DNA from: Xanthomonas sp. DAR 35659
Lineage (GTDB): Bacteria; Pseudomonadota; Gammaproteobacteria; Xanthomonadales; Xanthomonadaceae
DNA: 64,000 nt
Reading direction: 5' to 3'
Assembly (NCBI RefSeq): GCF_041242975.1
Contig: NZ_CP162488.1
Coordinates: 734,001-798,000 of the forward strand
The position numbers were made by a program, and so were the translations under genes. Position 1 is the first letter of the stretch; each line of letters opens with the position of its first letter. The notes beneath the pieces were generated by a model, which was not told the origin of the DNA, ran no database searches, and worked only from the letters and a program-made list of their open reading frames with translations. Positions 9,238 to 62,421 of the stretch are shown piece after piece.

Positions 9238-9302
9238 GCGCGCATCTTGCGCGCCTTCGCCGGCCAGGGAAAGCCGGCGCGGAGTGGAGCAACCCGCTGC
9301 GC

Positions 9303-9863: not shown

Positions 9864-9957
9864 GCGCGCATCATGCGGCACGTCCTCGTCTAAGAACAAT
9901 GAGGGACGGTTGGGCGGGACTCGGGATGTCGCGAGTTCGCAGTCGTGCCGCTTTTCT

Positions 9958-10019: not shown

Positions 10020-10149
10020 GGAAAGCCGCGGTGTCGCGGCTCTTGGTCGCCGAGCGATGTCGTGGGCTCCGCAAAGCGGGCGGCTCGGCGGCCGCGCTTG
10101 CGCTATCGGAGGCGGCGGCTCGGCCGCCCCGGGCCATCCGCAGGACGGC

Positions 10150-12636
<2,487 letters not shown>

Positions 12637-12736
12637 GGCGGGTCGGGCTTCGATGGGCGGGGCGGGCGCCCTGGGGGCGGTAGGGTGGCGCAATTGCTCC
12701 GGTTAGTGAAGCGTTGCGGTACTTCAGAGCGGCCGA

Positions 12737-12760
12737 CGCCCGGGGTTGGTACCCCGGGCG
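12737..12760. other. Strong GC hairpin upstream of topA
   Basis: CGCCCGGGG (12737-12745), a 6-nt loop and CCCCGGGCG (12752-12760). There is no T-tract on either side. It lies between the end of the RDD gene and the start of topA, so it may end the RDD-side transcript or act in the topA leader. Confidence 0.5.
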
Positions 12761-12892
12761 TTCAGCTGCGTCCCTCTTTTATTAGTGGGCATGTCTGGCG
12801 GTGGCTGTCAAGCGCCCTGGGGGCGCGCCTGCTGGCACGAGGGCGCCGCCGCCTTGGCCGCCGTCGCGTTCCGGGACGTGCGTCCCGGCGCG

Positions 12893-13834: not shown

Positions 13835-13871
13835 TCCGGTTCCCCAGGTTGCGATCGAAATCCATTTCCGC

Positions 13872-14600: not shown

Positions 14601-14635
14601 CCGTGCGTGCTGCCGTTCGTCGGCGGCTCAGTGCC

Positions 14636-15109
14636 TCAGTGCACCGGCTCCGGCTCGTCGACGAACATCTGCGTTTCCATCCAGGCGTAGGCCGCCTCGG
14701 CGCCGGGCTGGTTGAACAGCACCATCAGCACCACCCACTTCAGGTCGTCCAGGTCCAGTTCGTCCTGATCCAGGGCCATGGCCCGGTCCAGCACCAGTTC
14801 GCGCTGGTCGCTGTCGAGGATGCCGTGCTGTTCCAGGAACAGCAGGAAGCCGCGGCATTCCACGTCGAGCTTGTCCAGCTCCGGGCCGTGGTAGATGCGG
14901 ATCGGGCCATCGATGCGCGGCTGCGCCACGGCCGGGCGCTGGTCGGCCAGCGCATCCAGCCAATCGAACGCCTTGCTGATTTCGGTGGGGCTGAAGCCGG
15001 CCTGGATCAGGCCATTCTGGAGGGAGTCGCGATCGCGGACCGGGTCCGCATCCTCGCTGAAATAGTGTTCGAACAGGTACAGCAGGACATCCAGAATGCT
15101 CTCTTTCAT
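14636..15109 (-). CDS. smg: Smg family protein (DUF494)
   Basis: A 157-residue acidic helical protein of the Smg/DUF494 family, which sits next to dprA/smf in many gammaproteobacteria; its function is not known. The start [17 protein letters not shown] is the conserved N-terminus of the family. The length agrees with E. coli Smg (157 aa). It lies just downstream of dprA in the same direction with a 43-bp gap. Confidence 0.92.
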
Positions 15110-50865: not shown

Positions 50866-51105
50866 CGGCGTTCGCTGTTTGTGGCTGGCGGAAGGTTGTG
50901 GCCCCTGCTGATGGGTGTCAGCACGGCCCGCTGCCGTTTTCACGCGTGGGGGTACGCTGCGTGGAGCCCCGACGCTCCCGTCCCGGGAAGACAGCGCGCC
51001 ACGTCGAACTGTAAACTCCACGTTGCTTCGGCGCCTCTACCGGCGAGTACGCCAGAGGCGCCAAGCCGGCGGCCGACGCATCGCCCGCCCGCTCCGGACG
51101 CATCC

Positions 51106-51146
51106 GGGCCTATAGCTCAACGGTTAGAGCAGAGGACTCATAATCC
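51106..51146 (+). repeat. Left attachment site: displaced 5' half of the tRNA(CAT) gene
   Basis: 41 bp identical to the first 41 bases of the intact tRNA at 62346. It includes the acceptor 5' strand, D-arm and anticodon arm up to TCATAATCC. After 51146 the sequence diverges and no T-arm or 3' acceptor follows, so it cannot make a tRNA. It probably still sits behind the tRNA gene's original promoter. Confidence 0.93.
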
Positions 51147-51284
51147 GGTTCGGCTGAGTTTCCGCCAGCTGTCGATTCGCTCAAAATGCCTTGAAAAGCG
51201 TCTGTTTTCGCGGATATGGGTGCGCGTTCGCTTTCCAGTTTCCGCGGTGAAACTCCGGGAATTTCCGGCATCTCTACACCGGAA

Positions 51285-51518
51285 CTACACGCTGCTTTCT
51301 CGCTCTGCGATGCGTGCTGCCATCCAGTCCTCGACCTCCGATTCAACCCAGGCCGACAGTGTTCCGCCCAGCGGCACCGGCTTGGGGAAGCTGCCGACTC
51401 GGATTCGATCGTACAGGGTCGACTTCGGCAGGCCTGTGCGCGCCAGCACCTCACGAATGCGCAGGAAGCGCAGCGGGTGCCGTCCGGATGCAAGGCCAGA
51501 GTTGGGTTCGCTGTTCAT
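51285..51518 (-). CDS. AlpA-family regulator, left end of the element
   Basis: A 77-residue protein. The core FLRIREVLARTGLPKSTLYDRIRVGSFPKPVPLG (residues about 18-51) is the MerR-like helix-turn-helix of AlpA (P4/CP4-57 type). The acceptor W in LSAWVESEVEDWMAARIAERE also fits. AlpA proteins activate integrase or excision genes in cryptic prophages and phage-inducible islands. It lies 140 bp inside the left attachment site and reads toward it. It could act as a recombination directionality factor now that the nearby excisionase is broken. Confidence 0.88.
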   Translation of the reverse strand: MNSEPNSGLASGRHPLRFLRIREVLARTGLPKSTLYDRIRVGSFPKPVPLGGTLSAWVESEVEDWMAARIAERESSV

Positions 51519-51620
51519 TGGATGAGGCGTCGATCTGCTGAGCCGCTGACAGCATAATGCTGTCCGATCTTGTCACCCTCGCTACGTACGATCGGTCACC
51601 GCCAATTCGAGGTGCTCGAG

Positions 51621-51818
51621 ATGCTGCTGATGACGGTGATCGCGTGGAGATTTAAGTACTTCGCCGAGGGATCGGCGCCAACTGAACTGACCGTTCGTCG
51701 CTGGCTGCAATCCGGCTCTCTCCCCGGCATGAAGATCGGCGGCACCTGGTAAGTGGACGAGCATGCCTGGCTTGCCGGAGGCAACGAATTGGTGCTGCGT
51801 GTTCTGAGGAATTGCTGA
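51621..51818 (+). pseudogene. Excisionase-like gene interrupted by an in-frame stop
   Basis: From ATG 51621 (RBS-like GAGGTGCTCGAG upstream) the frame reads MLLMTVIAWRFKYFAEG, then ELTVRRWLQSGSLPGMKIGGTW. A TAA at 51750-51752 follows, and the frame then continues VDEHAWLAGGNELVLRVLRNC to a TGA at 51816. Small excisionases of Xanthomonas elements have a tyrosine or similar residue at this point (G-T/W-Y-V-D/N). One base change (TAT/TAC to TAA) would explain the break. The winged-helix fold needs the lost part, so loss of function is likely unless the stop is read through. Confidence 0.72.
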
Positions 51819-51893
51819 GCGTTTGCGCGCCAGCGTAGCTAGGCAAGCTGCGGCCCGCGTTGAAGCAGTCCAACGAGCAGCAGGCAAAGAAAA

Positions 51894-51909
51894 CCCCGCC
51901 GAAGCGGGG
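51894..51909 (-). terminator. Terminator after hicA (minus strand)
   Basis: CCCCGC-TTCG-GCGGGG followed on the minus strand by TTTTCTTTG, starting 9 bp after the hicA stop. This is a classic UUCG-loop intrinsic terminator. Confidence 0.88.
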
Positions 51910-51917
51910 TATCGGTA

Positions 51918-52106
51918 TCAGAACCGGTGGCTGATGCCAGCCTCTTTCATGATGCTGTTGGCGGTGTGCCTCGACTTGCAGACGTGGTTCACGCTGACGC
52001 AGTGCTTGCCATTGGTCCAGATGTCGTGAGAGCCCTTGCCATGCCGCAGAAACTGCCAACCGTTCTTGCGCAGGATTTCCTTAACCTGCTTCTCGTACCC
52101 ATTCAT
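51918..52106 (-). CDS. hicA: HicA-type mRNA interferase toxin
   Basis: A 62-residue protein with the dsRBD-like HicA fold. Residues 1-31 read MNGYEKQVKEILRKNGWQFL, then RHGKGSHDIWTN with the catalytic histidine H27 in GKGSHDIW. The second half is KHCVSVNHVCKSRHTANSIMKEAGI. HicA cleaves mRNA without the ribosome. Its ATG overlaps the stop of the upstream gene (ATGA), giving antitoxin-first order. It probably stabilises the element. Confidence 0.9.
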   Translation of the reverse strand: MNGYEKQVKEILRKNGWQFLRHGKGSHDIWTNGKHCVSVNHVCKSRHTANSIMKEAGISHRF

Positions 52107-52375
52107 GCATGGGCGATCCGATCCCGATATCGGATTGAAGCCACGGCGCGCGGGCCGATGTCAGAAGGCTTGCAGACCAGTTCGGGTATCAGATCGCGCG
52201 CTTCTGCCATCACGCCATCGAGCGTCTCAGCTTCGACTACCAGGCCGCGCACGTCCGGACTCGTGCCGATGAAAACGCCGGCTTCTTCATCGCGAACGAC
52301 TTCAACGAGGATCGTGGTTGTGATGCCGAGCTTGGCAATTATGTGGCCCAACGGCCAACCGTAGCGATAGTACAT
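52103..52375 (-). CDS. hicB: HicB-type antitoxin (DUF1902-like)
   Basis: A 90-residue protein from ATG 52375, which has GGAG 6 bp upstream; longer in-frame starts up to 52531 run through a terminator and are rejected. The core LVEVVRDEEAGVFIGTSPDVRGLVVEAETLDGVMAEARDLIPELV (residues about 23-67) is the partial RNase-H-like HicB fold (DUF1902/UPF0150). No C-terminal HTH or RHH is visible, so autoregulation by DNA binding is uncertain. It is coupled to hicA by a 4-nt overlap. Confidence 0.85.
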   Translation of the reverse strand: MYYRYGWPLGHIIAKLGITTTILVEVVRDEEAGVFIGTSPDVRGLVVEAETLDGVMAEARDLIPELVCKPSDIGPRAVASIRYRDRIAHA

Positions 52376-52403
52376 GCTCACTCCGACTCTCCTTGCCATG
52401 GTG

Positions 52404-52434
52404 GTGAAAAGAAAGCCGCCCTTCCAAGGGCGGC
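52404..52434 (-). terminator. Terminator upstream of hicB (minus strand)
   Basis: GCCGCCCTT-GG-AAGGGCGGC (arms 52415-52423 and 52426-52434), followed on the minus strand by TTTCTTTTC. It ends only 29 bp before the hicB start, so it insulates hicBA from the tail-protein gene upstream. The rest of 52435-52773 contains no gene that I can support. Confidence 0.85.
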
Positions 52435-52773
52435 CGCTGGACGTACTTGCAGCGGCGCCGCTTTCGATCACTTCGACAAAAAGTGTAACCCCCTTTCGAT
52501 GAAACAAACAGCATTTAGCGTTGACAATCATGATGAATGGTGCGTTGCGTAGACGGACGGTTCATCCGGCCCGGTTACCTGTGCTTTGACATCTACATAG
52601 CGGCCGAGTTCCATGTTTCTTGAAACATCAAGGGGTTGCGACCCGGGCTAAGGCTTGGAGGTTTGGCGGGGGATCGGCTAGCTGAACGGAATTCCTGAAC
52701 CACTTACATCGGGGTTGGGGAAGCCGTTACAGCCTCCAGAGTGCGTTGACCTGACTTTCCGCCAGGTTCAGCC

Positions 52774-53379
52774 CTACGCCTGATCCTCTGCGAAGATGCC
52801 GGCGCTGATGACGGCCGAGCCGGCCCACGTATCGCCGTAGGCGACCGGCACGGGGTTGCCCTGGGCCTGCATGTTCACCGGGCCATTGAACGCGTAGCTG
52901 GGCTTGTTGGCCGGGCTGTCCTGCGCGCCCAAGCCCTTCTGCGTAGGCGACAGCATCTGCACCACACCGCCGATCACCATGGCGACACCGGCGTTGATCA
53001 GCGGCGTACCGATCCACGCGAGGGAACCGCTGGAAAGGATGTTGATCGCCGCACCTGCAATGATCAGCACCGCGCCGACGATCGTCTGCAATGTGCCGCC
53101 GCGCTTCGATCCCTGCAGCACCGGCGCGATGCGGATCATCTCGTCGCCCGGCGGATCGTGTAGCTGGTCCTCGCTGAGGTTGCGCCGGCCGTTGAAGACC
53201 GAGAACACCATGCCCCGATCCTTGGCGCCCATGAGGAACGCCTGGAAGCCGGGGAGCTGTACCGAGAGCGCTCGGATCGCCTCGGCCGGCGACGCCACCG
53301 CCAGACGGAATTCCTTGCCGAAGCGGGCACGCAGGGCGCCGTAGAGGCGGACGATGCGCACCTTGGGTTGCTGGATCAT
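52774..53379 (-). CDS. Lambda-type phage tail assembly protein I
   Basis: A 201-residue protein matching gpI of lambda-like siphophages. The N-terminal ubiquitin-like domain is VRIVRLYGALRARFGKEFRLAVASPAEAIRALSVQLPGFQAFL. A Gly/Ala/Ile-rich hydrophobic stretch follows (residues about 98-150). The family C-terminus is PSYAFNGPVNMQAQGNPVPVAYGD...SAVISAGIFAEDQ. It is full length, with no other tail gene (K, L, J) near. gpI is needed to build the tail tip but is not in the finished tail. It starts at ATG 53379 with AGGAGGA and overlaps the preceding stop by 1 nt, so it is part of a two-gene unit. Confidence 0.9.
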   Translation of the reverse strand: MIQQPKVRIVRLYGALRARFGKEFRLAVASPAEAIRALSVQLPGFQAFLMGAKDRGMVFSVFNGRRNLSEDQLHDPPGDEMIRIAPVLQGSKRGGTLQTIVGAVLIIAGAAINILSSGSLAWIGTPLINAGVAMVIGGVVQMLSPTQKGLGAQDSPANKPSYAFNGPVNMQAQGNPVPVAYGDTWAGSAVISAGIFAEDQA

Positions 53380-53690
53380 CAGTTCCTCCTTTCGCTGGGA
53401 GAGATTGCGCCGAAAGCTACGTGCTGGGTGGCGACTTGGTCGGCGCCGATGGTCAAGACGCGGAGCATCGGGTCTGGCCCGTCGACGTCGAAGGCGACCA
53501 TGAGCCGTTCGCCGCGGCCGAGAGCATTGCCGATCGAATGGGCCGCGTCCGGGGTCCTGGATGCTGCCTGTGCCACCAACCGCGGGCACAGCTCCCTGCA
53601 GGCCGCCATCACCGCGCTGATCTCGGCGCGCAGGTCGGGCGCCACCTCAAATCTCTGCTGATCCGTAGCGTTCATGTGATCCGCTGCCAT
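53379..53690 (-). CDS. Hypothetical protein coupled to the tail assembly protein gene
   Basis: A 103-residue protein. It starts at ATG 53690 with GGAGG 7 bp upstream. It is mostly soluble: residues 6-50 are helical (DLRAEISAVMAACRELCPRLVAQAAS) and 60-95 beta-like (ERLMVAFDVDG, MLRVLTIGADQVATQHVAF). No family is recognised. The TGATG junction couples it to the tail protein I gene. It may be a partner or modifier of that protein, or simply a passenger. Confidence 0.7.
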   Translation of the reverse strand: MAADHMNATDQQRFEVAPDLRAEISAVMAACRELCPRLVAQAASRTPDAAHSIGNALGRGERLMVAFDVDGPDPMLRVLTIGADQVATQHVAFGAISPSERRN

Positions 53691-53737
53691 TGCATCGCCT
53701 CCGGCTTCTGGTGTTTGAAAAGGGACCTGTGAAACAA

Positions 53738-53757
53738 GATCCCGCCGGAGCGGGATC
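53738..53757 (-). terminator. Probable terminator ending the leftward operon
   Basis: GATCCCGC-TCCG-GCGGGATC read on the minus strand, followed by TTGTTTC. It lies between the 81-aa gene (stop 53858) and the 103-aa gene (start 53690), so the tail-protein pair may have its own promoter. Confidence 0.7.
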
Positions 53758-53857
53758 CGACCGCCTCACACTCAACCCAAGTGCAGCGGCTGCCGGGCGT
53801 TGTTGCGGACACCTCCCGGCTGGTCCGGCGCAAAGGAGCAACTCTCCGCGCGGTTGC

Positions 53858-54103
53858 TCAGTGCAGTCTCGACCTGAGGCGCGGCACGAGCGGAGTGGGG
53901 AGCGCGACCTGGCCGGTTTCCACGAGGTCATCGAACTGGCCCTCGACGTAGTCGTCGCAGCGTCCAGCGACGGCGTCGCTACCCAGCACCGCTTTGACTA
54001 CGCGGCGCCGGACGTCTGCGTCGCTGTCGTGGTCGGTCACATCTACGGCGGGCGCCAGGCGCGCAGCATTCGATACCAGCGCGGCGCGGCTCATGCGTGC
54101 CAC
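53858..54103 (-). CDS. Small RRRVV/RCDDY protein, copy 2 of a duplicated module
   Basis: An 81-residue protein of unknown family. Residues about 22-60 (VTDHDSDADVRRRVVKAVLG, then RCDDYVEGQFDDLVE) align without gaps to the 85-residue product of 54831-55088. It overlaps the preceding coiled-coil gene by 13 nt. The second halves differ: here a basic tail (LPTPLVPRLRSRLH). Clustered charged residues and the CDDY motif suggest a small interaction domain. No function is known to me. Confidence 0.75.
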   Translation of the reverse strand: MARMSRAALVSNAARLAPAVDVTDHDSDADVRRRVVKAVLGSDAVAGRCDDYVEGQFDDLVETGQVALPTPLVPRLRSRLH

Positions 54104-54753
54104 TCCGCATTGCGCGGATTGCCTGCAGCAGCATCCTTCTCGCCGCCGCCGCGCACTATCCCAATGTTGCCGCTGTGCGAGCCGGCATCGCGGTGCATGG
54201 ACGTGCGCTGGCCGCGCGACAGCGGGCTCAGCACCGCCAGCCTGTCGATCGTGGCAGCTGCTGCCGATTGCTCCGGCCTGGGCGTGATGCCGGCGGCGTT
54301 CAACCGGCCGCGCGCCTGAGCGATTCCCAGATACAGCTGTTCCACCGCATCGAACGAAGTCTCCAGCTCCCGCTGCTTCGCCTCCGCGCCTTCGATGGCG
54401 GCCACCAGGCGCTGCTGCAGATCGGGCAGGCCTTCATCGGCTTCCCTGAGCAGCGCGAGGTTGCGGAGCTGGCAGAGACTGTCATGCATGGCCCGCATAC
54501 GGTCCCGCTCGATCGACAGCTGATCGAACTCCTTTTGCATCTTCGCGATCTCTTCCACGCTGCCGCTGATCAGCAGCTTCCGGTAGAGCGGGCCGTTGTT
54601 CGCAGAACGCGGGCCGGCGATTGCGATCTCTTCCCAGCGGGCATTGTAGCGGCCAAGCTCGGGCTGCAGCTGGGCCAGCATGCTGCTGACCTCCTGCGAG
54701 CTCAACGGATTGTCGCGGCTGATTGCTCTGCGGATATCTTCGACGATGGACAT
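54091..54753 (-). CDS. Coiled-coil protein of unknown function, copy 2 of a duplicated module
   Basis: A 220-residue, largely helical protein. Residues about 50-150 align gap-free with the product of 55188-55841: NNGPLYRKLLISGSVEEIAK versus NRGTEYSRVLSFGATEELAS, then EFDQL...LRNLALLREADEGLPDLQQRL versus EFQQL...LRRAQAAREAQAALPDLQGKL. The heptad pattern suggests a coiled coil. The C-terminal 50 residues are polar, of low order, and unlike those of copy 1. GGAG lies 6 bp before the ATG at 54753. No family is recognised. Confidence 0.78.
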   Translation of the reverse strand: MSIVEDIRRAISRDNPLSSQEVSSMLAQLQPELGRYNARWEEIAIAGPRSANNGPLYRKLLISGSVEEIAKMQKEFDQLSIERDRMRAMHDSLCQLRNLALLREADEGLPDLQQRLVAAIEGAEAKQRELETSFDAVEQLYLGIAQARGRLNAAGITPRPEQSAAAATIDRLAVLSPLSRGQRTSMHRDAGSHSGNIGIVRGGGEKDAAAGNPRNAEWHA

Positions 54754-54830
54754 GAAATCTCCGGTATGTGGTTGCTGGATCTGGGCGCAGGTCGTTGGCG
54801 ATGGGGCGGCTATTGGGTCGCCTACGACTA

Positions 54831-55088
54831 TCAGCGGCTAAGGCGCCCCGGCGACGTGATCACTTGCGCCTTCGGCTTCATCTTGTTCTGGACGATGGAG
54901 TCGAAGACACCGTGGATGTAGTCATCGCATCGGTCTTTAATTTTCGCTTCGCCGACCACGCTCACGACCACGCGCCGGCGGATCTCTGCGCTTGTATCTG
55001 CGTCTTGAATTTGCATGTCGGGGGCCACCGTTTGGACGTCGAAGAGCAGCTTTGCACGGGCGTTTACTTGGTCAGTAAAAGTGCTCAC
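54831..55088 (-). CDS. Small RRRVV/RCDDY protein, copy 1 of a duplicated module
   Basis: An 85-residue protein starting at GTG 55088, which overlaps the TGA of a 29-codon frame (GTGA). Residues about 27-68 (DADTSAEIRRRVVVSVVG, then RCDDYIHGVFDSIVQ) are the counterpart of the 81-residue protein at 53858-54103. The N-terminus (STFTDQVNARAKLLFDVQTVAPDMQIQ) has no equivalent motif there. Unknown family. Confidence 0.75.
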   Translation of the reverse strand: MSTFTDQVNARAKLLFDVQTVAPDMQIQDADTSAEIRRRVVVSVVGEAKIKDRCDDYIHGVFDSIVQNKMKPKAQVITSPGRLSR

Positions 55089-55174
55089 GGGATATCCTTC
55101 CTGGCCTGCTTGGCCTCTGCAGCGGCAACCAAGCCGCTGCTGTCGACAGAAGAGCCAAGCTCTGCTAGATCCAT
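55085..55174 (-). CDS. Very small protein (29 aa) with strong RBS inside the duplicated region
   Basis: An open frame of 29 residues, MDLAELGSSVDSSGLVAAAE then AKQARKDIP. Its ATG is at 55174 with GGAGG 7 bp upstream, and its TGA overlaps the GTG start of the next gene. It may be a true micro-protein, or a leader frame that couples translation of the 85-residue protein to the operon. There is no counterpart in the second copy of the module. Confidence 0.5.
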   Translation of the reverse strand: MDLAELGSSVDSSGLVAAAEAKQARKDIP

Positions 55175-55187
55175 GGTTCGGCCTCCT

Positions 55188-55841
55188 TCAGTTGGAAAAG
55201 TTCGACAGTGCAGACTCAAGCATCGGGCTGGCGCGGGGCTTCCAATCACCGACTTTGACGCCAAGCTCGGCTTCCAGCATGTCGCGCCAGTCAGGCCGGA
55301 TGAAGTTCGCGCCTTGAATTGGTGACGCCAGGCCGATCAAGCGGTCGACGGTTTCGAATGAAGCCGCAGCGCCGATAAATGTGGTCCCTACGAGAGAGTG
55401 GCGGGCGAGCTTGACTGCCTGCAGCGCTTCGTTGACGTCGTTCAGAGAGGACAGCCATGCAGCCCGTGCGGCGGCGGCCGACGCCAGCGACTGCTCCAGC
55501 TTGCCCTGCAGGTCGGGAAGCGCTGCCTGCGCTTCCCTGGCTGCCTGCGCGCGCCGTAGGTTGCCCAGAGAGCTGCACTGCGCCAGCACTCGCTCCTGTT
55601 GCTCCTGCAGCTGCTGGAACTCCTGCCGGATAGATGCCAGTTCTTCCGTGGCCCCGAAGCTGAGGACGCGGGAGTATTCCGTGCCACGGTTGTGCTGGTG
55701 GTCTCCTGGATGGATCGCCTTCAGCCGAGCGGCGTTCTTGTCTCGCAGCGGACGCAGCTCAGTCAGCAGATCATCCAATTGGCTGGTGCTGGTTTCATCG
55801 GAGGCTGCCGCAGCCGCAGCGCGATCGAGGATATCGGTCAT
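55188..55841 (-). CDS. Coiled-coil protein of unknown function, copy 1 of a duplicated module
   Basis: A 217-residue protein. An N-terminal Ala-rich helix is followed by a long heptad region (about 50-150: EYSRVLSFGATEELASIRQEFQQL, then LRRAQAAREAQAALPDLQG). The more ordered C-terminal part (ASFETVDRLIGLASPIQGAN, then DWRDMLEAELGVKVGDW) is absent from copy 2. It is paralogous to 54091-54753 over about 100 residues. It starts 12 bp after the stop of the upstream gene. No signal peptide or membrane segment is present. Function unknown. Confidence 0.78.
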   Translation of the reverse strand: MTDILDRAAAAAASDETSTSQLDDLLTELRPLRDKNAARLKAIHPGDHQHNRGTEYSRVLSFGATEELASIRQEFQQLQEQQERVLAQCSSLGNLRRAQAAREAQAALPDLQGKLEQSLASAAAARAAWLSSLNDVNEALQAVKLARHSLVGTTFIGAAASFETVDRLIGLASPIQGANFIRPDWRDMLEAELGVKVGDWKPRASPMLESALSNFSN

Positions 55842-55853
55842 GTTCGTCTCCGG

Positions 55854-56282
55854 CTATCGCTGGAAGTACTGGCGGCCGGCCTGCAGCGCTTCGACGGAGT
55901 CGAGGTAAGCAGCCATGGCAGGATTGGATCGCTCGATCGATTCACGGGCAGCGGCTTCGGCTTGGTGGCGGTCGGCGATCGCCTGTACCTGCCGTGCGCT
56001 CGAGATTGAGGCGTCCAGGGTTCGTTGGTTGGCCGCTGCGTTGGATCCGCAGACCCGCCCGCCTTGGCGCAGCCACTCCTGGTGATCGGCCATTGCCTGG
56101 GCGCGAGCTGCCGCAACATCGTCGTGTGCCGCTATCGCTTGTTGTGTGGAGTCCATGAGTGTCATTCGGATGGAGATGCGCTCGCCGTCCTTCAGCACGC
56201 GACTCTTTCGCTTGCCGAACTCGTCAAACTCGTCGGGAACCACGTTCCCGTACCGGTCGTAGATCACGCTGTGTGCGGTCAT
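55854..56282 (-). CDS. Hypothetical protein of the element operon
   Basis: A 142-residue protein. The N-terminal beta-like part (VIYDRYGNVVPDEFDEFGKRKSRVLKDGERISIRMTL, residues 6-42) is followed by a long Ala/Gln/Asp-rich helix (about 45-140). The N-terminal pattern looks like a small viral or element protein that keeps a conserved DRYGNVV...DGERI core, but I cannot name a family. Its ATG overlaps the stop of the preceding gene (ATGA). Confidence 0.7.
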   Translation of the reverse strand: MTAHSVIYDRYGNVVPDEFDEFGKRKSRVLKDGERISIRMTLMDSTQQAIAAHDDVAAARAQAMADHQEWLRQGGRVCGSNAAANQRTLDASISSARQVQAIADRHQAEAAARESIERSNPAMAAYLDSVEALQAGRQYFQR

Positions 56283-56785
56283 GCTCTATCTCCTGGGGTG
56301 CCGCTAGGCGGCGGTGGGAATGGGCAGGGCAGCCCAGCGGTGCCGTGAATCTCAGCCAGCGTGCGTGCGTCGCTCGATCCCATCTTGTCCCAGAGGTCGG
56401 TCTGTCGCCAAAACTGCTTCTCGGCCTCTGGGTCGATGCGCCCTACCGCCTCGATGAAGTCGACCATCACGCCCACGCTGACGCTTTTGGGCTCGGGTAC
56501 GGGACCGATTTCGAGACCTCTCAGCGTGGCTGCATACGCCTCCGCTGCCTGATTGGGCGTCATGTCTGGGGTGATGGTCTGGATACCGAGCATCCAATGA
56601 TCAGAGGGACCACGGATTGCGTCTTGCACCTGACTCGCCTGCTCAACCAGATGGCCGTAGTCGACAGTGAGATTGTAGACGGCGGCCCACATCGCCAGGT
56701 CGGCCGCTGATATCGGCGGACGTGCTGCAGACCGCATTGCGGTGGCCTCTACGGCGCGAATACGACGCTTCAGTTCATTTCGCAC
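56279..56785 (-). CDS. Hypothetical protein downstream of the DUF5681 gene
   Basis: A 168-residue protein using GTG 56785, with GGAGG 6 bp upstream. A longer frame to 56977 lies entirely inside the DUF5681 gene in another frame and is rejected. It is helical (NELKRRIRAVEATAMRSA, DLAMWAAVYNLTVDYGHLVEQASQVQDAIRG, DMTPNQAAEAYAATLRGLEIG) with a polar Pro-rich end. It overlaps the DUF5681 stop by 11 nt. Unknown family; its place suggests joint action with DUF5681. Confidence 0.72.
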   Translation of the reverse strand: MRNELKRRIRAVEATAMRSAARPPISAADLAMWAAVYNLTVDYGHLVEQASQVQDAIRGPSDHWMLGIQTITPDMTPNQAAEAYAATLRGLEIGPVPEPKSVSVGVMVDFIEAVGRIDPEAEKQFWRQTDLWDKMGSSDARTLAEIHGTAGLPCPFPPPPSGTPGDRA

Positions 56786-57236
56786 GGTCACCCTCCAGCG
56801 CCCTGAGGCGCGCGTCGAAGTCAGCCGCCTCGAAGGCCATGGAAAACGTCTGTACACAGCGCGATAGGCGCTCGGCCTCGCCGGAGGTGAGGGTTCCATC
56901 AGCTGCGCCCTGCAGGATCGCCTGGAGGGTCTTGGGGACGTCCGCCGGCGAGGTGGGGACGGGCAGGTCGATCGCAAGCACGCGCTCGCGTGAGGGAGGA
57001 GAGACTCGTTCGAGGCAGAGCCTGAGCGCAGTGCTGTCGCCGGCCAACGCTAGGTCGATGGCCTTGCGCATTAGCTGCTTGGATTCCCCTTCCAGCAGCT
57101 TCAGAGCTGCGATGGTGGCTTTGTTGCGTGCACCGCGGCGTTTGCCTGGGTTCCCCGGTCCGAAGCGTCCACGGCTGTCACGTGGCGCCGTATCCGTTCC
57201 GCTAATTCGGTCGTTGCTCTTCGTCATGGGTGCCAT
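56775..57236 (-). CDS. DUF5681 domain protein
   Basis: A 153-residue protein (150 if the ATG at 57227 is used). The N-terminal basic motif RDSRGRFGPGNPGKRRGARNKAT (residues about 19-41) followed by a helical stretch (ALKLLEGESKQLMRKAIDLALAGDSTALRLCLERVSPPSR) is the DUF5681 pattern. It is found widely next to phage terminase-like and mobile genes; a nucleic-acid role is suspected in the literature but not proven. It overlaps the upstream stop by about 30 nt and the downstream start by 11 nt. It is the only named family in this part of the operon. Confidence 0.82.
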   Translation of the reverse strand: MAPMTKSNDRISGTDTAPRDSRGRFGPGNPGKRRGARNKATIAALKLLEGESKQLMRKAIDLALAGDSTALRLCLERVSPPSRERVLAIDLPVPTSPADVPKTLQAILQGAADGTLTSGEAERLSRCVQTFSMAFEAADFDARLRALEGDRAK

Positions 57237-57840
57237 TGCACCCGCTACGCAAACGGTCTTGTAGCTTGACCCGCTTTTTTCTCGGGCTGATCAGTCCCTT
57301 TTTCCGCAGGGCCTGGCGGATGGCGTCCCTCCTGTGCTCAGGAAACCTTCTGGCACAGATGCTGACCAGTTCGTGCTCGCTGTAGCGCACGCCGTTTCCT
57401 GTGCCATCAATGCGGCCGGTGGCATAAGCAAACAAGCGCGCGTGCCATTCCGGCTCTCGCTTGTTCTTGCCACCGGCCGCTCCGCCCTTGATGACCGCCA
57501 CTCCCCTGCTGAGGGGATATGCCTTCTCGGCATCGTCCAACGTCCAGAAGGCGCCATGCAGGTGCTGCCGGATCTCTGGATCATGCAAGGCTGCTGGTCG
57601 GTCTCCCAGGGCGCGCTCTCGAGCATCCAGGCGGTCTACGCGAAACTGGAGAGCTACCCGGCGCCGCTCAAGGTCGGCAAGGTTCCCGCGCCAGTCCTGT
57701 TCGATCGCAGCGAATCGGCGAAGCAGATGGGCTGACAGCGGATCATCAGGCGCGATGCTGTTGATCAGCTCCCAGAGCGCCAGTTCCGCGGGGTCGTTGC
57801 TGTAGCTATGGATTAGCAGCGGCATGTCTTCGTCATTCAT
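57202..57840 (-). CDS. Hypothetical protein, first gene after the iteron region
   Basis: A 212-residue protein from ATG 57840; the longer frame to 57945 has no support. The N-terminal acidic helical part (DPAELALWELINSIAPDDPLSAHLLRRFAAIEQDWRGNLADLERRRVALQFRVDRLDARE) contains a coiled-coil-like segment. The C-terminal winged-helix-like part is basic (GVRYSEHELVSICARRFPEHRRDAIRQALRKKGLISPRKKRVKLQDRLR). The C-terminus could bind DNA. It is the first gene of the leftward operon after the repeat region, so it is likely controlled from there. Confidence 0.72.
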   Translation of the reverse strand: MNDEDMPLLIHSYSNDPAELALWELINSIAPDDPLSAHLLRRFAAIEQDWRGNLADLERRRVALQFRVDRLDARERALGDRPAALHDPEIRQHLHGAFWTLDDAEKAYPLSRGVAVIKGGAAGGKNKREPEWHARLFAYATGRIDGTGNGVRYSEHELVSICARRFPEHRRDAIRQALRKKGLISPRKKRVKLQDRLRSGCNGTHDEEQRPN

Positions 57841-58005
57841 GCGGTAGTTCCTCGCGTGCGCAATGCCTGCGGAAAGGTCAGCATTCGTCAACAGGGGCCG
57901 GGTGCCCAGGGCGATGCTACCTGCATGCCGTGGCCTTTCATGCACCCCGGCACGCCAGCACCGTGGCGGCCTGGCTGAAGGGCGGTGCGGTCACTGCGGC
58001 TGCGC

Positions 58006-58042
58006 CGAAACCGTTCGGCATACGGTTTGGGGAACGGTTTCG
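58006..58042. repeat. 11-bp inverted repeat
   Basis: CGAAACCGTTC (58006-58016) and GAACGGTTTCG (58032-58042) are exact reverse complements across 15 bp. They lie about 170 bp before the start of the leftward gene at 57840. Confidence 0.8.
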
Positions 58043-58090
58043 CAAAATCCAATTTTGGGCTTTGCTTGGAAATCAACCATCTGCAGAGCC

Positions 58091-58124
58091 GGAAGCCTTC
58101 CCGGAAGCCTTCGGGGAAGCCTTC
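58091..58124. repeat. Three direct repeats GGAAGCCTTC at 12-bp period
   Basis: Perfect 10-bp copies at 58091, 58103 and 58115. Each contains the odd palindrome GAAG-C-CTTC. Confidence 0.85.
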
Positions 58125-58190
58125 CGCTGCCGCTGCGGCCGAATCGCCCGGGCGGTGAGCGCTCATGGAGTGCTCGATGAGCCGCGCGCC

Positions 58191-58222
58191 TGCTAGTAGC
58201 AGCCGATTTCGTGCTAGTAGCA
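58191..58222. repeat. Two direct repeats TGCTAGTAGCA at 21-bp period
   Basis: Perfect 11-bp copies at 58191-58201 and 58212-58222, spaced two helical turns apart and directly adjoining the inverted repeat at 58223. Confidence 0.8.
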
Positions 58223-58253
58223 TGCGAACGCATCGATTTAGCATGCGTTCGCA
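58223..58253. repeat. Inverted repeat built on TGCGAACGCA
   Basis: TGCGAACGCAT (58223-58233) and ATGCGTTCGCA (58243-58253) can form an 11-bp stem with a 9-nt loop. Each arm carries TGCG-WW-CGCA, which recurs in the regulator/integrase control region at 60510. Confidence 0.8.
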
Positions 58254-58385
58254 GTGCGACCGCATCACCGTTCGCCGAACGCTCGTCGATCGCTCGCCGA
58301 TTTGGCCGCCGTGGTGCTGGAGCGGTAATCCAGAGCCTGGATCAGCAGCAGAAACGCGCACATGCCCTGGTAATACTTTTAAGGT

Positions 58386-58531
58386 GTTCACGGGGCGAAC
58401 AACGTTGGGGGCGAAAACAGCCGTTACTAGTTCACGGGGCGAACAAGTCAGCGATTTCTTGTTCACGGGGCGAACAAGGCGAGCTGCGACTAGTTCACGG
58501 GGCGAACAAGCGTTGTTCACGGGGCGAACAA
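58386..58531. repeat. Array of five perfect 17-bp iterons
   Basis: GTTCACGGGGCGAACAA occurs at 58386, 58430, 58461, 58493 and 58515, all in the same orientation and without mismatch. Start-to-start distances of 44, 31, 32 and 22 bp are close to 4, 3, 3 and 2 helical turns. Each copy has GTTC/GAAC dyad arms; copies 3 and 5 extend to TTGTTC/GAACAA. The array ends 12 bp from the stop codon of the winged-helix gene. Spacers are 27, 14, 15 and 5 bp, so it is not a CRISPR array. Confidence 0.92.
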
Positions 58532-58543
58532 CTCTTTGCGTTT

Positions 58544-59017
58544 TCACGCAGCGCTCCTGAGCTTCGTTTCAGGGATCGATTTGCGCGCCCCGGTGGTTCT
58601 GCTGAAGTCCGGCCTCTTCTCTTTCCAGGCATTGGTCGGCTTGGGCGAAAGACCCCAGCCAGCGTCCAGCGGCTTCTCCTTTTTGTGGTCGACTCGACGC
58701 CAGCTGAAGGCGTGCAGGTTCTCTTTGTTCCTGCCGCCCTGCTGGGTGCGCTCGATGATTCCATAGTGCTCAAGCTCGCGCACCGCGAGGTACAGGGTCG
58801 CTGACGAGTTCCACCCCACGTGCTGCATCAGGGACCAGGACGCGCACAAGTAGCCGTTGTTGAACCCGGTGTACTGCGCGCCGAGGTCATGGAGCAGCTT
58901 GTGCGCCCAAGCGCTAAGGCGGATGAAGTTCGGATGGCGCAGGAGCGTGTATGGCACCACGAAGGCTGAGCCTCCGTCGATGTCGTCCCACCGGTTGTCT
59001 TGCTTCTTCCTGCCCAT
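58544..59017 (-). CDS. Winged-helix protein beside the iterons, possible replication or partition initiator
   Basis: A 157-residue protein. SAFVVPYTLLRHPNFIRLSAWAHKLLHDLGAQYTGFNNGYLCASWSLMQHVGWNSSATLYLAVRELEHYGIIERTQQGG (residues about 17-95) is a winged-helix/HTH region of a type common on plasmids, islands and prophages of gammaproteobacteria. The basic tail (KEKRPDFSRTTGARK) is disordered. The iteron array starts 12 bp after its stop codon, which suggests it may bind there. Replication function is an inference from position; a transcription-factor role is equally possible. It starts 10 bp after the upstream stop. Confidence 0.72.
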   Translation of the reverse strand: MGRKKQDNRWDDIDGGSAFVVPYTLLRHPNFIRLSAWAHKLLHDLGAQYTGFNNGYLCASWSLMQHVGWNSSATLYLAVRELEHYGIIERTQQGGRNKENLHAFSWRRVDHKKEKPLDAGWGLSPKPTNAWKEKRPDFSRTTGARKSIPETKLRSAA

Positions 59018-59027
59018 GTGCGCTCGC

Positions 59028-59246
59028 TCAGGCAGCCACGCGCGACAGCTGCTTGGTCAGCAGTCGCCGGTTGTGCTCGCACACGGCGCGATCGTTGGCG
59101 TACTGGGGTGCGGTGCACCCCATGCCGATGAGCGTGTCCAGAGCGCTCTCCGCGGCCTTCGTGCTGGCCAGCCAGCGCTCGACCTGCGCACGCGGCACGT
59201 CGCGTAGTTGGCGCGCCGTGAGGCAACGCATGGGGCGGTAGTTCAT
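59028..59246 (-). CDS. Small hypothetical protein
   Basis: A 72-residue basic helical protein (TARQLRDVPRAQVERWLASTKAAESALDTLIGMG, then NDRAVCEHNRRLLTKQLSRVAA). Unknown family. It is 10 bp before the winged-helix gene and 9 bp after the previous stop, so it is part of one leftward operon. Confidence 0.65.
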   Translation of the reverse strand: MNYRPMRCLTARQLRDVPRAQVERWLASTKAAESALDTLIGMGCTAPQYANDRAVCEHNRRLLTKQLSRVAA

Positions 59247-59255
59247 GGGGCCTCC

Positions 59256-59468
59256 TCAGTGTGATGCGGGCGGCAGAAGCCGGTCGATGCCGGTGAGCAC
59301 CTGCGCCATGCCCCAGGCGGTGTTGATCGGAGTGGCGGGATTGCTCGACCACATCTCGACGAAAGTCGACGACACGGCGTCGGGCGTGAAGTCGTCATCG
59401 TCGATTTCAGGAAGGGACGACGCGCGGAGCATCTCGGTCAGCTCTTTCAGCAGCTTTTTCCTGTTCAT
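59256..59468 (-). CDS. Small acidic hypothetical protein
   Basis: A 70-residue protein. A basic N-terminal helix (NRKKLLKELTEMLRASS) is followed by an acidic patch (LPEIDDDDFTPDAVSSTFVEMW). Its ATG overlaps the stop of the preceding gene (ATGA). No family is recognised. Confidence 0.65.
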   Translation of the reverse strand: MNRKKLLKELTEMLRASSLPEIDDDDFTPDAVSSTFVEMWSSNPATPINTAWGMAQVLTGIDRLLPPASH

Positions 59469-59893
59469 TCGCGCTCTCCGATCTGCTGCTCAGCGACACG
59501 TGCGCCGCGTGGGAGCGGGAGGTCCGTTTGCTTCAATGGACCGCGCTTCTTTTTCAGCCGGCGCACGATCTTGTCCGACGGGAATCGCAGCATCTGGCAC
59601 GTGTCCAGCTTGTCCGCACCCCTCCAGGCATCCACCCTGGCCAAGTACTTCAGCCTTTCAATCTGGGCTTCCGTATCGTTGCCCTCGTAGAGTTCCCGGT
59701 CTCTCCGGACGCTTTCTCTCATGGCTTTGCTGACTGTCTCGAAAGCGATAGCGACACCATCGTGCCCGAAGCAATCCAGGTGTTCGAAACGCAGTCGAAG
59801 GATGAACAAGCAAGCGGCGTTGGTGTCGAGCGCGTTCTGCAGCAGACGGGCACGCTGCACGTTTCCCGAGAGTTGGTGTATCGTTGCGGACAT
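59465..59893 (-). CDS. Hypothetical protein of the element's early operon
   Basis: A 142-residue protein, helical and charged. It has two cysteines in CLFILRLRFEHLDCFGHDGVAI. The central acidic/basic helix is DRELYEGNDTEAQIERLKYLARVDAWRGADKL, and the C-terminus is very basic (DKIVRRLKKKRGPLKQ). It may bind nucleic acid. It overlaps the next gene by 4 nt. I do not recognise a family. Confidence 0.65.
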   Translation of the reverse strand: MSATIHQLSGNVQRARLLQNALDTNAACLFILRLRFEHLDCFGHDGVAIAFETVSKAMRESVRRDRELYEGNDTEAQIERLKYLARVDAWRGADKLDTCQMLRFPSDKIVRRLKKKRGPLKQTDLPLPRGARVAEQQIGERE

Positions 59894-59959
59894 GGTCGTT
59901 CCTCGTGAGGGTTCGGTCTGAAATTCGACGGCTCGGGCGCTGGCACGCTCGGGCCGTTT

Positions 59960-60178
59960 CTATTTGCTGGTGCTGATCGGGTTGCTGGTCAACTTGGCCG
60001 CCAGCGCACGCGCGCTCTGCATTGCCAGCAGCGGTTCGGCGTACTTGGCGGCTAGGGCGGCTCGGTGGGCATCGAATCGAGCAGAGATCGCCGCGGCGAG
60101 TTGCTCCCGCGACTGGGTGTTCGAACGCGGGCGAGGCGCACGTATCGTGGCCGGCTGGGCGAGCTCTATGCTTTGCAT
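59960..60178 (-). CDS. Small hypothetical protein, Ala/Arg-rich
   Basis: A 72-residue protein: a Pro/Arg-rich N-terminus, then an amphipathic helix (QLAAAISARFDAHRAALAAKYAEPLLAMQSARALAAKLTS). The RBS is AAGGAACGAACTGACC before ATG 60178. It lies between the AlpA-like gene (77 bp upstream) and the 142-aa gene. Unknown family. Confidence 0.6.
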   Translation of the reverse strand: MQSIELAQPATIRAPRPRSNTQSREQLAAAISARFDAHRAALAAKYAEPLLAMQSARALAAKLTSNPISTSK

Positions 60179-60255
60179 GGTCAGTTCGTTCCTTGTCAGG
60201 GTTCGGGGTGGCTTCAGCGGCTCGTTCCGGAGGGAGCCGGGCGGGCCGCCTCTCT

Positions 60256-60480
60256 TCAGCCGGCGAGAGCACGGCTGTTGGTCGTCTCGACGACGGATCC
60301 CTCGATGTAGGCGTCAAGGTCGGCGCGGCGGTAGAAAACCCGGCCGCCCAACCGGACGTAGCGCGGGCCGCGGCCTTCGTGGCGCATTTTTTCCAGAGTC
60401 GAGTTGCTCAGGCCGAGATATGAGGCGGCCTCGGGTCCTTTGAGGCGATTTGCAGCAAGTTCGGAGGGCTTGGTGGTCAT
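60256..60480 (-). CDS. AlpA/excisionase-type helix-turn-helix regulator
   Basis: A 74-residue protein of the HTH_17 (excisionase/MerR-like) type: LKGPEAASYLGLSNSTLEKMRHEGRGPRYVRLGGRVFYRRADLDAYIEG (residues about 13-61). The layout matches small regulators that act as AlpA-type activators or directionality factors. It is divergent from the Arc-like repressor gene across a 122-bp control region and is the first gene of the leftward operon. It probably governs the switch between quiescence and excision/replication. Confidence 0.88.
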   Translation of the reverse strand: MTTKPSELAANRLKGPEAASYLGLSNSTLEKMRHEGRGPRYVRLGGRVFYRRADLDAYIEGSVVETTNSRALAG

Positions 60481-60509
60481 GAGTGTGGGCTCTTGTTTGT
60501 GCGTTACAA

Positions 60510-60582
60510 TGCGAACGCAGATAAAGCCTACTACTGGTTTTTGTGGATGGCAATGGTTTTTTGCGTTATCTTTGCGTTCGCG
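60510..60582. promoter_or_regulatory. Divergent control region with TGCGWWCGCA sites
   Basis: TGCGAACGCA at 60510-60519 and the inverted near-copy TGCGTTCGCG at 60573-60582 flank the centre of the divergent region, with TGCGTT half-sites at about 60500 and 60562. The same 10-bp site occurs twice in the repeat region (58223, 58244). It is a likely operator for the Arc-like or AlpA-like protein; which one is not shown. Confidence 0.6.
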
Positions 60583-60602
60583 CCCAACTCTGCAGAAATC
60601 GC

Positions 60603-61175
60603 ATGTCTCAAACCCCCAAGAAGAAGCCGGGAAGGCCGCCCAAGCCCGAGAAGGAGAGGGCAGGAAACTTCAGTGTCCGGCTACCCCCGGAGTTGCGCGG
60701 CAGGATTGAGGCGGCAGCGGAAACGGCCGCGCGATCCGTCAACGCGGACATCGTGGCGCGCCTTGAAGAGTCCTTTGACTGGCGTGTTGCGCTTCCTGCT
60801 GAGTTGAAGGATCGCCTTACTCAGGCGGCGTTCCATGCCAACAGGACCCTCGAAGCTGAGGTTGCGAGGCGCTTGGCGACGAGCTTCGACTCGTTGGAGA
60901 CCGTCACTTTCGCGAACCGAACGGAAGAGCTCCGCTTGGTTCAGCAGGAGATCCAGTCTCACGAGAAAACGTTGGCGGAGGTACGGGAACCGGGCGTCGC
61001 ACCCGAGGGCTACGTCAGCCAAGTCGAGCGCGCTCTGGCCAGACTCATCGCTCATCGCGATCGTCTCAATGAAGATATCCAGGAAGTGATCGAGCGCTGG
61101 GATCAGCCCCTCTCGGTGCTCGGGAGCCTTGAACTGGACATCGAGGAGTACGAAAGGATTGGGCAGAAGAAATGA
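60603..61175 (+). CDS. Arc-family ribbon-helix-helix repressor (two RHH units) with C-terminal coiled coil
   Basis: A 190-residue protein from ATG 60603. A basic AT-hook-like leader (KKKPGRPPKPEKER) is followed by one RHH unit (NFSVRLPPELRGRIEAAAETAARSVNADIVARLEESF, residues about 23-59). A second shorter unit is WRVALPAELKDRLTQAAFHANRTLEAEVARRLATSF (about 60-95), then a helical C-terminus. Arc-type proteins bind operator pairs as dimers of dimers; tandem units could replace that. It overlaps the integrase gene (ATGA), so repressor and integrase are made together. It is divergent from the AlpA-like gene and is the likely master repressor. Confidence 0.85.
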   Translation: MSQTPKKKPGRPPKPEKERAGNFSVRLPPELRGRIEAAAETAARSVNADIVARLEESFDWRVALPAELKDRLTQAAFHANRTLEAEVARRLATSFDSLETVTFANRTEELRLVQQEIQSHEKTLAEVREPGVAPEGYVSQVERALARLIAHRDRLNEDIQEVIERWDQPLSVLGSLELDIEEYERIGQKK

Positions 61176-62335
61176 CCGCCTTCGCCAAGCTCACTCGCGC
61201 CGGCATGCGCGGCCTGCAGCCTGGCCAGTCGCTGAGCGAGCACGGCATCACCTACACGCGCACCAGCGCCGGCGATGGCCGGTGGTCGGTCAACGTGATG
61301 GTCAACCGCCGGCGGCATCACCAGGTGGTCGGCCTGGAATCGGAGGGCTACACCCGCACGCAGGCTGAGGACGTTGTGAGCGCGCTGAAGGCCGCCAAGC
61401 GTTCCGCCGCACATGGGGTAGCTGGAAGCCGTCAGGCGCGCGTTCTGAGCATTTCCCAGGCTGCGGACGACTACCTGGCGTATCTGGCCAAGCATGATGG
61501 CCGCGACCTGGTGGCGAAGATGATGCGATTCCAGCAGCACCTTGTTCCGCACCTCGGGCAGCAGCAGGTCGCGCGCCTGACCGATGACGACTGGATGGCC
61601 TACGTCTCCAAGCGCAAGGCCGAAGGCGCGAGCCCGGCGACGATCAACCGGGAGCGGTCGGCGCTGCTGCACATGCTCAACACGATGCGTCGGCGCAAGC
61701 TGCTGGCCGCGGTGCCGCTGCTGGCGCGCCAGGCCGAGCCGGAGGGCAAGTTGGTCTACCTCACGCCGGCGGAGTCGCAGCGGCTGCTGAAGGCTGCAGC
61801 GAACGATCAATCGGACCTGGCGCACCGCTTCGTCATGGTGACGCTCTACACCGGCCTGCGGCACAGCGCGGCGCTGAACCTGCGCGCCGCCGACGTCGAC
61901 GTGGAGCGGCGCATCCTCTGGATCCGGCGCGACAAGGCCGGTCGGCGCGAGCAGGCAATGCCGCAGGTGCTGGCCGACTACCTGGGCGAGGTGATCGCCG
62001 ACATGGAGCAGGAGGCGTTCCTGTTCGCGTCGCCGCGCGCGAAGTCGGGCAGGGTCTACCAGATGAACGCTATCTTCGCTCGGTGCGTCGAGCGCGCCGG
62101 CATCAGCAAGCACGTGACGCCGCACACGATGCGCCACACCGCGGCGACGAACGCGGCGCACGCCGGCCTCGATGCCGCGACGATCCAGATGATGGGCGGA
62201 TGGAAGACACGCGCCATGGCGGAACGGTACACTCACGCCGCTTCGATGCGGGACGCGATGGATGCCCTCCAGAGTCGGCTGACAAGCCGCAGGGTTACAC
62301 CGAAATTGCAACGGCGATCGCGCAAATCCGCTTGA
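61172..62335 (+). CDS. int: Tyrosine recombinase integrase of the element
   Basis: A 387-residue integrase. An N-terminal arm-binding domain (about 1-85: TYTRTSAGDGRWSVNVMVNRRRHHQVVGLESEGYT) is followed by a SAM-like core-binding domain (about 90-170). The catalytic domain has R230 (TGLRHSAAL), H318 and R321 (HTMRH), W344 in place of the second H, and nucleophile Y353 (ERYTHAA). All catalytic residues are present. It ends 10 bp before the intact tRNA. It probably recombines at the anticodon-arm region of the tRNA. Its transcript may also run through the tRNA. Confidence 0.95.
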   Translation: MTAFAKLTRAGMRGLQPGQSLSEHGITYTRTSAGDGRWSVNVMVNRRRHHQVVGLESEGYTRTQAEDVVSALKAAKRSAAHGVAGSRQARVLSISQAADDYLAYLAKHDGRDLVAKMMRFQQHLVPHLGQQQVARLTDDDWMAYVSKRKAEGASPATINRERSALLHMLNTMRRRKLLAAVPLLARQAEPEGKLVYLTPAESQRLLKAAANDQSDLAHRFVMVTLYTGLRHSAALNLRAADVDVERRILWIRRDKAGRREQAMPQVLADYLGEVIADMEQEAFLFASPRAKSGRVYQMNAIFARCVERAGISKHVTPHTMRHTAATNAAHAGLDAATIQMMGGWKTRAMAERYTHAASMRDAMDALQSRLTSRRVTPKLQRRSRKSA

Positions 62336-62345
62336 AACCCTTTCA

Positions 62346-62421
62346 GGGCCTATAGCTCAACGGTTAGAGCAGAGGACTCATAATCCTTTGGTTCCAGGTT
62401 CGAATCCTGGTGGGCCCACCA
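62346..62421 (+). tRNA. tRNA with CAT anticodon (tRNA-Ile2 or tRNA-Met), right attachment site
   Basis: 76 nt including encoded CCA. The acceptor stem GGGCCTA/TGGGCCC (one G-T) is closed, and the anticodon loop is CT-CAT-AA. The T-loop is GGTTCGAATCC. A CAT anticodon and strong 5' GG favour tRNA-Ile2 (read as k2CAU after TilS action), but elongator Met cannot be excluded by eye. The first 41 nt are identical to 51106-51146, so the 5' half came with the element and the 3' half is chromosomal. Confidence 0.93.

Follow-up and report, generated by a model that had tools for sequence, protein, structure and literature searches.

What do two adjacent copies of a two-gene module do in the chromosome of Xanthomonas sp. 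DAR 35659? The module was noticed in a preliminary description of a 64,000-nucleotide stretch of this genome (contig NZ_CP162488.1, positions 734,001 to 798,000; hereafter the window), in which each pair consisted of a larger, coiled-coil-like protein (L1, L2) and a smaller one (S1, S2). The four open reading frames (ORFs) were found where that description had placed them, on the minus strand. Judged by sequence, each small protein corresponds to the C-terminal domain of the DUF2213/PHROG_530 protease-scaffold protein, here encoded by a gene of its own, and the pairs lie in an 11.2-kb element that is most likely a phage satellite. With moderate confidence, we read both pairs as a satellite capsid-assembly module, a competing split scaffold that would act on the heads of a helper phage. 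The genes concerned are the following.

55854..56282, minus strand: X142, short protease-like segment, found by the helper-profile search
55188..55841, minus strand: L1, coiled-coil-like, pair 1
55085..55174, minus strand: 29-codon ORF between L1 and S1, AGGAGG upstream; its stop overlaps the GTG start of S1
54831..55088, minus strand: S1, stand-alone scaffold C-terminal domain, pair 1, with PHROG and profile matches
54091..54753, minus strand: L2, coiled-coil-like, pair 2
53858..54094, minus strand: S2, stand-alone scaffold C-terminal domain, pair 2, ATG start

The two pairs are real paralogues, with alignment scores far above those of shuffled controls. The local score of L1 and L2 was 171, against a mean of 38.2, a standard deviation of 6.9 and a maximum of 72 in 1000 shuffles; for S1 and S2 it was 135 (shuffles: mean 25.9, standard deviation 4.7, maximum 51). 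BLASTP in both directions gave E 2e-15 (30% over 179 residues) and 2e-6 (35% over 99) for the L proteins, and 4e-16 and 8e-11 (41% over 59) for the S proteins. The S alignment is gap-free across 59 residues, whereas that of L contains one 1-residue gap near residue 45 and then runs ungapped for about 105 columns. One boundary had to be moved: S2 probably starts at the ATG at 54094, whose ATGA overlaps the stop of L2, and not at the GTG at 54103. The 29-codon ORF in front of S1 has a strong ribosome-binding site. Third-position GC is 0.72-0.81 in the four pair ORFs and 0.67-0.88 in six adjacent genes.

Neither protein had been assigned to a known family, and for S this was wrong. S1 matches residues 281-345 of the 390 of the PHROG_530 head maturation protease (E 6.7e-9) and S2 residues 285-341 (E 7.2e-8), at the C-terminal end of that family. 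A hidden Markov model (HMM) built from 18 helper-type DUF2213 proteins, none of them from the window or from satellites, placed S2 (E 2.7e-12), S1 (8.8e-12) and X142 (0.0083, matching 28 of 373 profile positions) at the top of the 433 window ORFs, the next ORF having E 0.33. The C-terminal domain of the helper-type proteins aligns with S over most of the length of S. When a two-row S profile was run against 395 genomes of the same bacterial family, 12 contained matches. Nine carried the domain near the C-terminus of proteins longer than 350 residues, and the one of these proteins that was checked by Pfam matched DUF2213 (E 1.7e-50); stand-alone S genes were present in the genome of the window, G141 and G375. 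Two isolated short profile matches, at 6221-6478 of locus L026 (G141, contig 53) and at G000:C1:4063012-4063140 in the genome of the window (L027), had no element around them and may be due to chance.

The AlphaFold model of S1 is a small helical domain (predicted local distance difference test, pLDDT, 88). Three of its five best matches in BFVD were a head protein, a prohead protease or a DUF2213 protein, including the POR1 prohead protease (67 columns, root-mean-square deviation 1.8); the head-protease matches had TM-scores of about 0.6 on the query, with every Foldseek E at 0.3 or worse. No match to the model was found in the PDB (best E 3.8). Searches with S1 by tblastn of phage records and in viral contigs gave nothing useful, and among 5.8 billion proteins S1 found itself alone (3 candidates). 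The PF09979 (DUF2213) protease domain gave no Pfam match among the scanned element proteins.

The nature of the long helper-type genes suggests what S may be a part of. We fetched 77 viral-contig loci with one DUF2213 protease, and 69 yielded a protein of more than 300 residues carrying the S domain; most of the longer contigs were about 45-56 kb. Relatives of the DUF2213 protein occur in 1534 of 50,697 phage records, spanning at least 80% of the query in 1228. The helper-type genes encode the S domain in their 3' half, after a coiled-coil-like stretch. The scaffold part begins with a VDG motif in 65 of the 69 proteins, and an in-frame ATG lies at most 15 residues before it in 64. A Shine-Dalgarno-like site precedes 50 of these 64 ATGs, compared with 99 of 396 other internal ATGs of the same genes; this count omits five of the 69 proteins, four without the VDG motif and one without the ATG. 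Because many of the 69 proteins are close relatives, the internal starts are not independent events. The 3' half of these genes (L044-L120) is a probable nested scaffold gene, whose product would then serve as a scaffold. Such an arrangement is familiar from phage lambda, in which the scaffold (Nu3) is nested inside the protease gene (C). In phage P2, too, the scaffold is part of the protease (excerpts of PMC6893505). The Pam3 homologue of the DUF2213 protein is annotated 'head scaffold protein'. Within bases 1-24267 of phage CUB19 no gene is annotated as a scaffold; its annotations include gp5 'structural protein', gp6 'hypothetical' and gp9 'capsid assembly protein F'. The DUF2213 protease alignment found nothing useful among PDB sequences (best HflX, E 0.06).

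For L the absence of a known family stands: Pfam and PHROGs gave chance-level matches only. PDB sequences (best human AF-10, E 0.01) and a tblastn search of phage records with L1 gave nothing useful. In the AlphaFold model of L1 (pLDDT 73, with low values at the C-terminus) a helix of 86 residues is surrounded by shorter ones. The family is rare: scoring the best 7995 candidates out of 5.8 billion proteins gave at least 4 with E no higher than 1e-3. Among the genomes sampled, L occurs in the family (5 of 395, one doubtful), the order (3 of 398), the genus of G141 (1 of 7) and the class (1 of 274); the samples are not disjoint, and the genome of the window is counted in family, order and class. 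A further L-profile match, in G336 (E 3e-4), lies inside a 680-residue frame. A Rhizobium coiled-coil protein (from element L034) was not accepted as a homologue, since its hhalign E of 6e-4 came with a probability of only 28; seven shuffle comparisons with L gave z from -0.2 to 5.8. No library match suggested an immunity or toxin function for L1, L2, S1 or S2, the PADLOC defence library not being among those searched.

The element that carries the pairs spans 51103-62386 in a 5.4-Mb single-contig genome and is bounded by a 44-bp direct repeat of tRNA-Met sequence, the copies of which are 98% identical and spaced 11240 apart. Its G+C content is 62.8%, against 70.9% for window bases 1-50000; the 1.6 kb past the tRNA-Met gene are likewise low (61.2%). 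Apart from the genes given above, its features are these.

51103..51146, plus strand: attachment-site (att) copy, direct repeat, duplicated part of tRNA-Met at the distal end
51285..51518, minus strand: second AlpA-type regulator (Pfam AlpA, E 8e-17)
51918..52106, minus strand: HicA toxin-type gene (Pfam, E 1.3e-8)
52774..53379, minus strand: lambda tail-assembly protein I homologue (PF06805, E 2.9e-9; PHROG_32, E 1.3e-68); start chosen in this analysis, the ORF extending to 53589
53379..53690, minus strand: 103-residue gene, no Pfam or PHROG family
56279..56785, minus strand: gene with relatives in elements L024 and L025 (see below), start uncertain
56775..57236, minus strand: DUF5681-like protein (Pfam E 1.5e-4; 22.7 bits, under the cut-off of 27.5), 74.5% identical in L024
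57202..57945, minus strand: gene without assigned family; L024 relative 29% over 199 residues
58374..58532, no strand: five repeats (family D1) with palindromic core GTTC-ACGGGGC-GAAC
58544..59017, minus strand: possible replication initiator, 157 residues, 96% identical in sister element L030
60256..60480, minus strand: AlpA/HTH_17-type regulator (HTH_17, E 3.4e-12; AlpA, merely E 0.029)
60543..61175, plus strand: Arc-type ribbon-helix-helix regulator (Pfam Arc, E 5.5e-12)
61172..62335, plus strand: tyrosine integrase (PF00589, E 5.9e-30)
62343..62386, plus strand: att copy, direct repeat, overlapping tRNA-Met (62346-62421) at the integrase end

Phage-inducible chromosomal islands (PICIs) are described, in the available portions of PMC11364771 and PMC6092414, as integrated elements of about 10-15 kb with their own integrase and pri/rep gene, an AlpA-type regulator in Gram-negative hosts, and an incomplete virion gene set that leaves them reliant on helper virion proteins; a helper phage induces and packages them. 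The element resembles them in its size and integrase, in its AlpA-type regulators and in lacking a complete virion gene set: Pfam scans of 20 element proteins and PHROG scans of 11 found tail protein I and the scaffold pieces as the only virion genes, with no portal or capsid gene. For replication of its own there are two weak candidates, the 157-residue gene (PHROG_186 DnaD-like at E 0.09; nothing in other library scans) and the origin-like repeats beside it, perhaps an origin or regulator binding sites. A TerS-like role for the DUF5681-like protein is a guess from position alone; a search of viral contigs for the DUF5681 gene pair gave nothing useful. The tail I homologue, whose top phage match has 55.6% identity, is also present in L024.

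Five elements with L were read in DNA, namely the window element, L024, L025, L128 and L130, and all have an integrase; in the other four, the stretches examined did not contain the tRNA-Met att core. S follows four of the six L genes (both in the window and those of L024 and L025), that is, in three of the five elements, and an ATGA overlap joins L and S in three of the four pairs. L2 is nearer to the L of L024 (36%) than to L1 (26%), so the pairs, described earlier as a tandem duplication, are paralogous but do not look like the product of a recent local duplication. L1 and L2 grouped together in 16% of 200 bootstrap replicates; built from seven long-branched rows, the tree is weak, and what it makes less likely is a young duplication, an old one being still compatible with it. 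In the S tree, the 17 helper rows and the S of L025 share one branch (99/98), with S1, S2 and the S of L024 apart.

L024 is informative about how the parts of the helper protein may be distributed. A separate 270-residue gene encodes the DUF2213 protease (positions 2-180 of the 373 of the helper profile), and one 144-residue gene holds the scaffold start, the coiled coil and the C-terminal tail (positions 197-264 and 334-371). Positions 270-333, the part represented by S1 and S2, are absent from both genes, and S is a gene of its own. The order is scaffold gene, protease gene, then tail I, L and S. X142-type genes were found in the window element, L025, L128, L130 and the Rhizobium element L034. 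As a family they match the protease (hhalign E 2.5e-6, probability 88.8, 34 columns), and the reverse search found the L024 protease (E 5.3e-6); taken singly against the helper profile, the genes other than that of the window gave E 0.0015 (L025), 0.0003 (L128), 0.042 (L034) and 0.83 (L130). In L034, from Rhizobium rosettiformans, a DUF5681 gene, the X142-type gene, a 524-residue tape-measure-like gene and half a neck protein lie at 9953-14854. One S HMM matched this half neck protein at E 0.005, which was taken as chance.

L128 and L130 have L without a detectable S, so L must act without S there. This observation favours another explanation, in which the target of S is the helper scaffold or capsid, L works elsewhere, in the tail or in packaging, and operon assembly made them neighbours. 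The tail I gene close to L-S in the window and in L024 would suit it, as would L130, where a TerL-like gene (Pfam E 8.5e-5, just under the cut-off) stands directly before the X142-like and L genes, with a cytosine DNA methylase after them (7839-10277, 10459-11913). Unrelated jobs, which we regard as improbable, are harder to reconcile with the ATGA overlap that couples three of the four pairs and with the occurrence of the pair twice in the window.

Further elements share the integration site. The window integrase was found at E up to 1e-80 in 6 of 297 genomes of the family, its own included. Of the five other genomes, four provided the sister elements that were read, with integrases 70-97% identical; the integrase of the G235 element is 54% identical. 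Each sister has the tRNA-Met att core twice, about 8-11 kb apart, and morphogenesis genes in the place that L-S occupies in the window element.

L030 (genome G250): prohead protease and capsid protein
L031 (G227): capsid protein and tape measure
L032 (G116): tape-measure-like protein (26.4 bits, under the Pfam cut-off of 30.2)
L033 (G190): capsid protein

L030, which has neither L nor S, shares the integrase (97%) and the 157-residue gene with the window element. Since the cargo differs among the sisters, the L-S half of the element looks like an exchangeable module directed at helper particle assembly. These comparisons also bear on the idea that a decaying prophage left these genes behind as remains of its head operon. 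Fragments of one phage protein are indeed scattered over several element genes. However, the frames are open with high third-position GC, portal and capsid genes are lacking among the scanned proteins, related gene sets occur in elements with other integrases and sites, and the L profile matched none of the 77 helper-type loci. We consider a prophage remnant highly improbable.

We therefore return to the competing split scaffold. In this proposal, S1 and S2 would each represent the free-standing C-terminal domain of a nested scaffold that the helper encodes in the 3' part of its DUF2213 protease gene, and L1 and L2 would be long helical partners that dimerise or form a core. The genes may be expressed from a single operon message, and L and S would make contact. 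S would bind the helper major capsid protein, or the scaffold, where the helper's own scaffold normally docks, and the pair would thus compete with that scaffold. By outcompeting it, the pairs might redirect or poison helper heads to the benefit of the 11-kb satellite. Given an element of 11.2 kb and longer helper contigs mostly of about 45-56 kb, a full-size head would have to be filled by several copies, the alternative being a smaller head. Interference with a helper phage, as guessed in the preliminary description, fits this picture.

A more elaborate version of the proposal is that the satellite dismantled the helper protease-scaffold polyprotein into split-scaffold genes, the order X142, L, S mirroring protease segment, coiled coil and C-terminal domain, and that each of the two L-S pairs is matched to a different helper capsid type or both together build a mixed scaffold. 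We offer it tentatively, as doubtful. The S of L025 branches among helper sequences (support 84/76), and S genes may therefore stem from separate captures.

Several results weigh against the split scaffold. That S of L025 is one, together with the S of L024, which reaches E 0.43 with the helper profile and is at chance level when paired with the S of L025 (z 0.5), the two being linked through S1 and S2. Neither of two S HMMs found S at E <0.1 in L128 or L130, nor in the sisters L030-L033; the result for L128 and L130 is a further difficulty. As for L, a relationship with the scaffold coiled coil was rejected (hhalign probability 0.2), and the L1 model has no convincing fold match in BFVD (best a minor tail protein, E 0.009, TM-score 0.27). 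DUF2213 (PF09979) was not found in the genome of the window, and the same search found none in 14 control genomes either. Finally, scaffold competition would be compatible with either outcome, smaller heads or a helper that is merely blocked. The latter would apply if S were a dominant-negative scaffold fragment that jams helper heads as an anti-phage device, with no heads of satellite size. The window element has S without the remainder of the scaffold, and the excerpted literature contains precedents in Tai, of PICIs, P4-like satellites and prophages, and Tab, of a prophage, which block virion assembly, both at the tail step. Next to its L-S genes L024, in contrast, still has the protease domain as well as most of the scaffold, an arrangement that looks like use rather than blocking alone. 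Interference alone is in our view unlikely, though less so than unrelated jobs of L and S.

Satellites that redirect heads through scaffold-like proteins are already known, and the head-size switchers named in the available portions of PMC12409344 and PMC10945586 are CpmAB, Ccm, Rcm, Sid and TcaP. CpmB of the staphylococcal pathogenicity island SaPI1 (72 residues, acting with CpmA) is a small helical protein that shares with the helper scaffold a C-terminal part for capsid binding and competes with this scaffold (excerpts of PMC5644958). S is similar in resembling the C-terminal part of a helper scaffold. In CpmB, however, the shared part is a short RIIK motif beside a dimerisation domain of its own, whereas S comprises an entire domain, about 60-70 residues long, of a protease-scaffold fusion and travels with L. 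Rcm of SaPIpT1028 is multi-helical and is proposed to resemble the helper scaffold and to compete with it (PMC12409344, in part); it is a single staphylococcal protein, in contrast to the two-gene set described here, which includes a DUF2213-type scaffold domain. S is likened to CpmB and Rcm by their descriptions, not by sequence. The proposal in the same text that a size switcher mirrors the topology of the helper scaffold agrees with S.

The satellite scaffolds Sid of P4, elongated, helical and prone to coiled coils (PMC6893505, in part), and TcaP of PLE (PMC10945586, in part) also set head size. L1, predicted to be mostly one long helix, is reminiscent of Sid. Sid and TcaP differ in being external scaffolds, L is set beside both by description, and the L searches of PDB sequences and BFVD folds returned neither. 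PICIs with a capsid-protein homologue, SaPIbov5 (Ccm) and PmCI172, are reported in the excerpted literature; like the sisters L030, L031 and L033 they carry a helper-type morphogenesis gene, which is a capsid protein there and scaffold pieces in the window element. With respect to the PHROG_530/DUF2213 protease itself, S is homologous to its C-terminal domain and X142 to a short protease segment, but S has neither the protease nor the coiled coil and is encoded by its own gene within a satellite-like element. What appears to be new is a whole DUF2213-type nested-scaffold domain that has been split off, paired with L and kept twice. Among the open-licence papers listed by the literature searches, none reported a split DUF2213-type scaffold domain in satellites.

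The findings suggest a nested-scaffold function for the C-terminal half of DUF2213 proteins. Five elements at one tRNA gene with different morphogenesis sets are a good system for studying how satellites switch the step of helper assembly that they attack. If the proposed mechanism is true, the L-S pairs would add another satellite head-size switcher, one that derives from a helper-scaffold domain still recognisable as such; its docking site could be tested, and two natural versions of it stand next to each other in the element.

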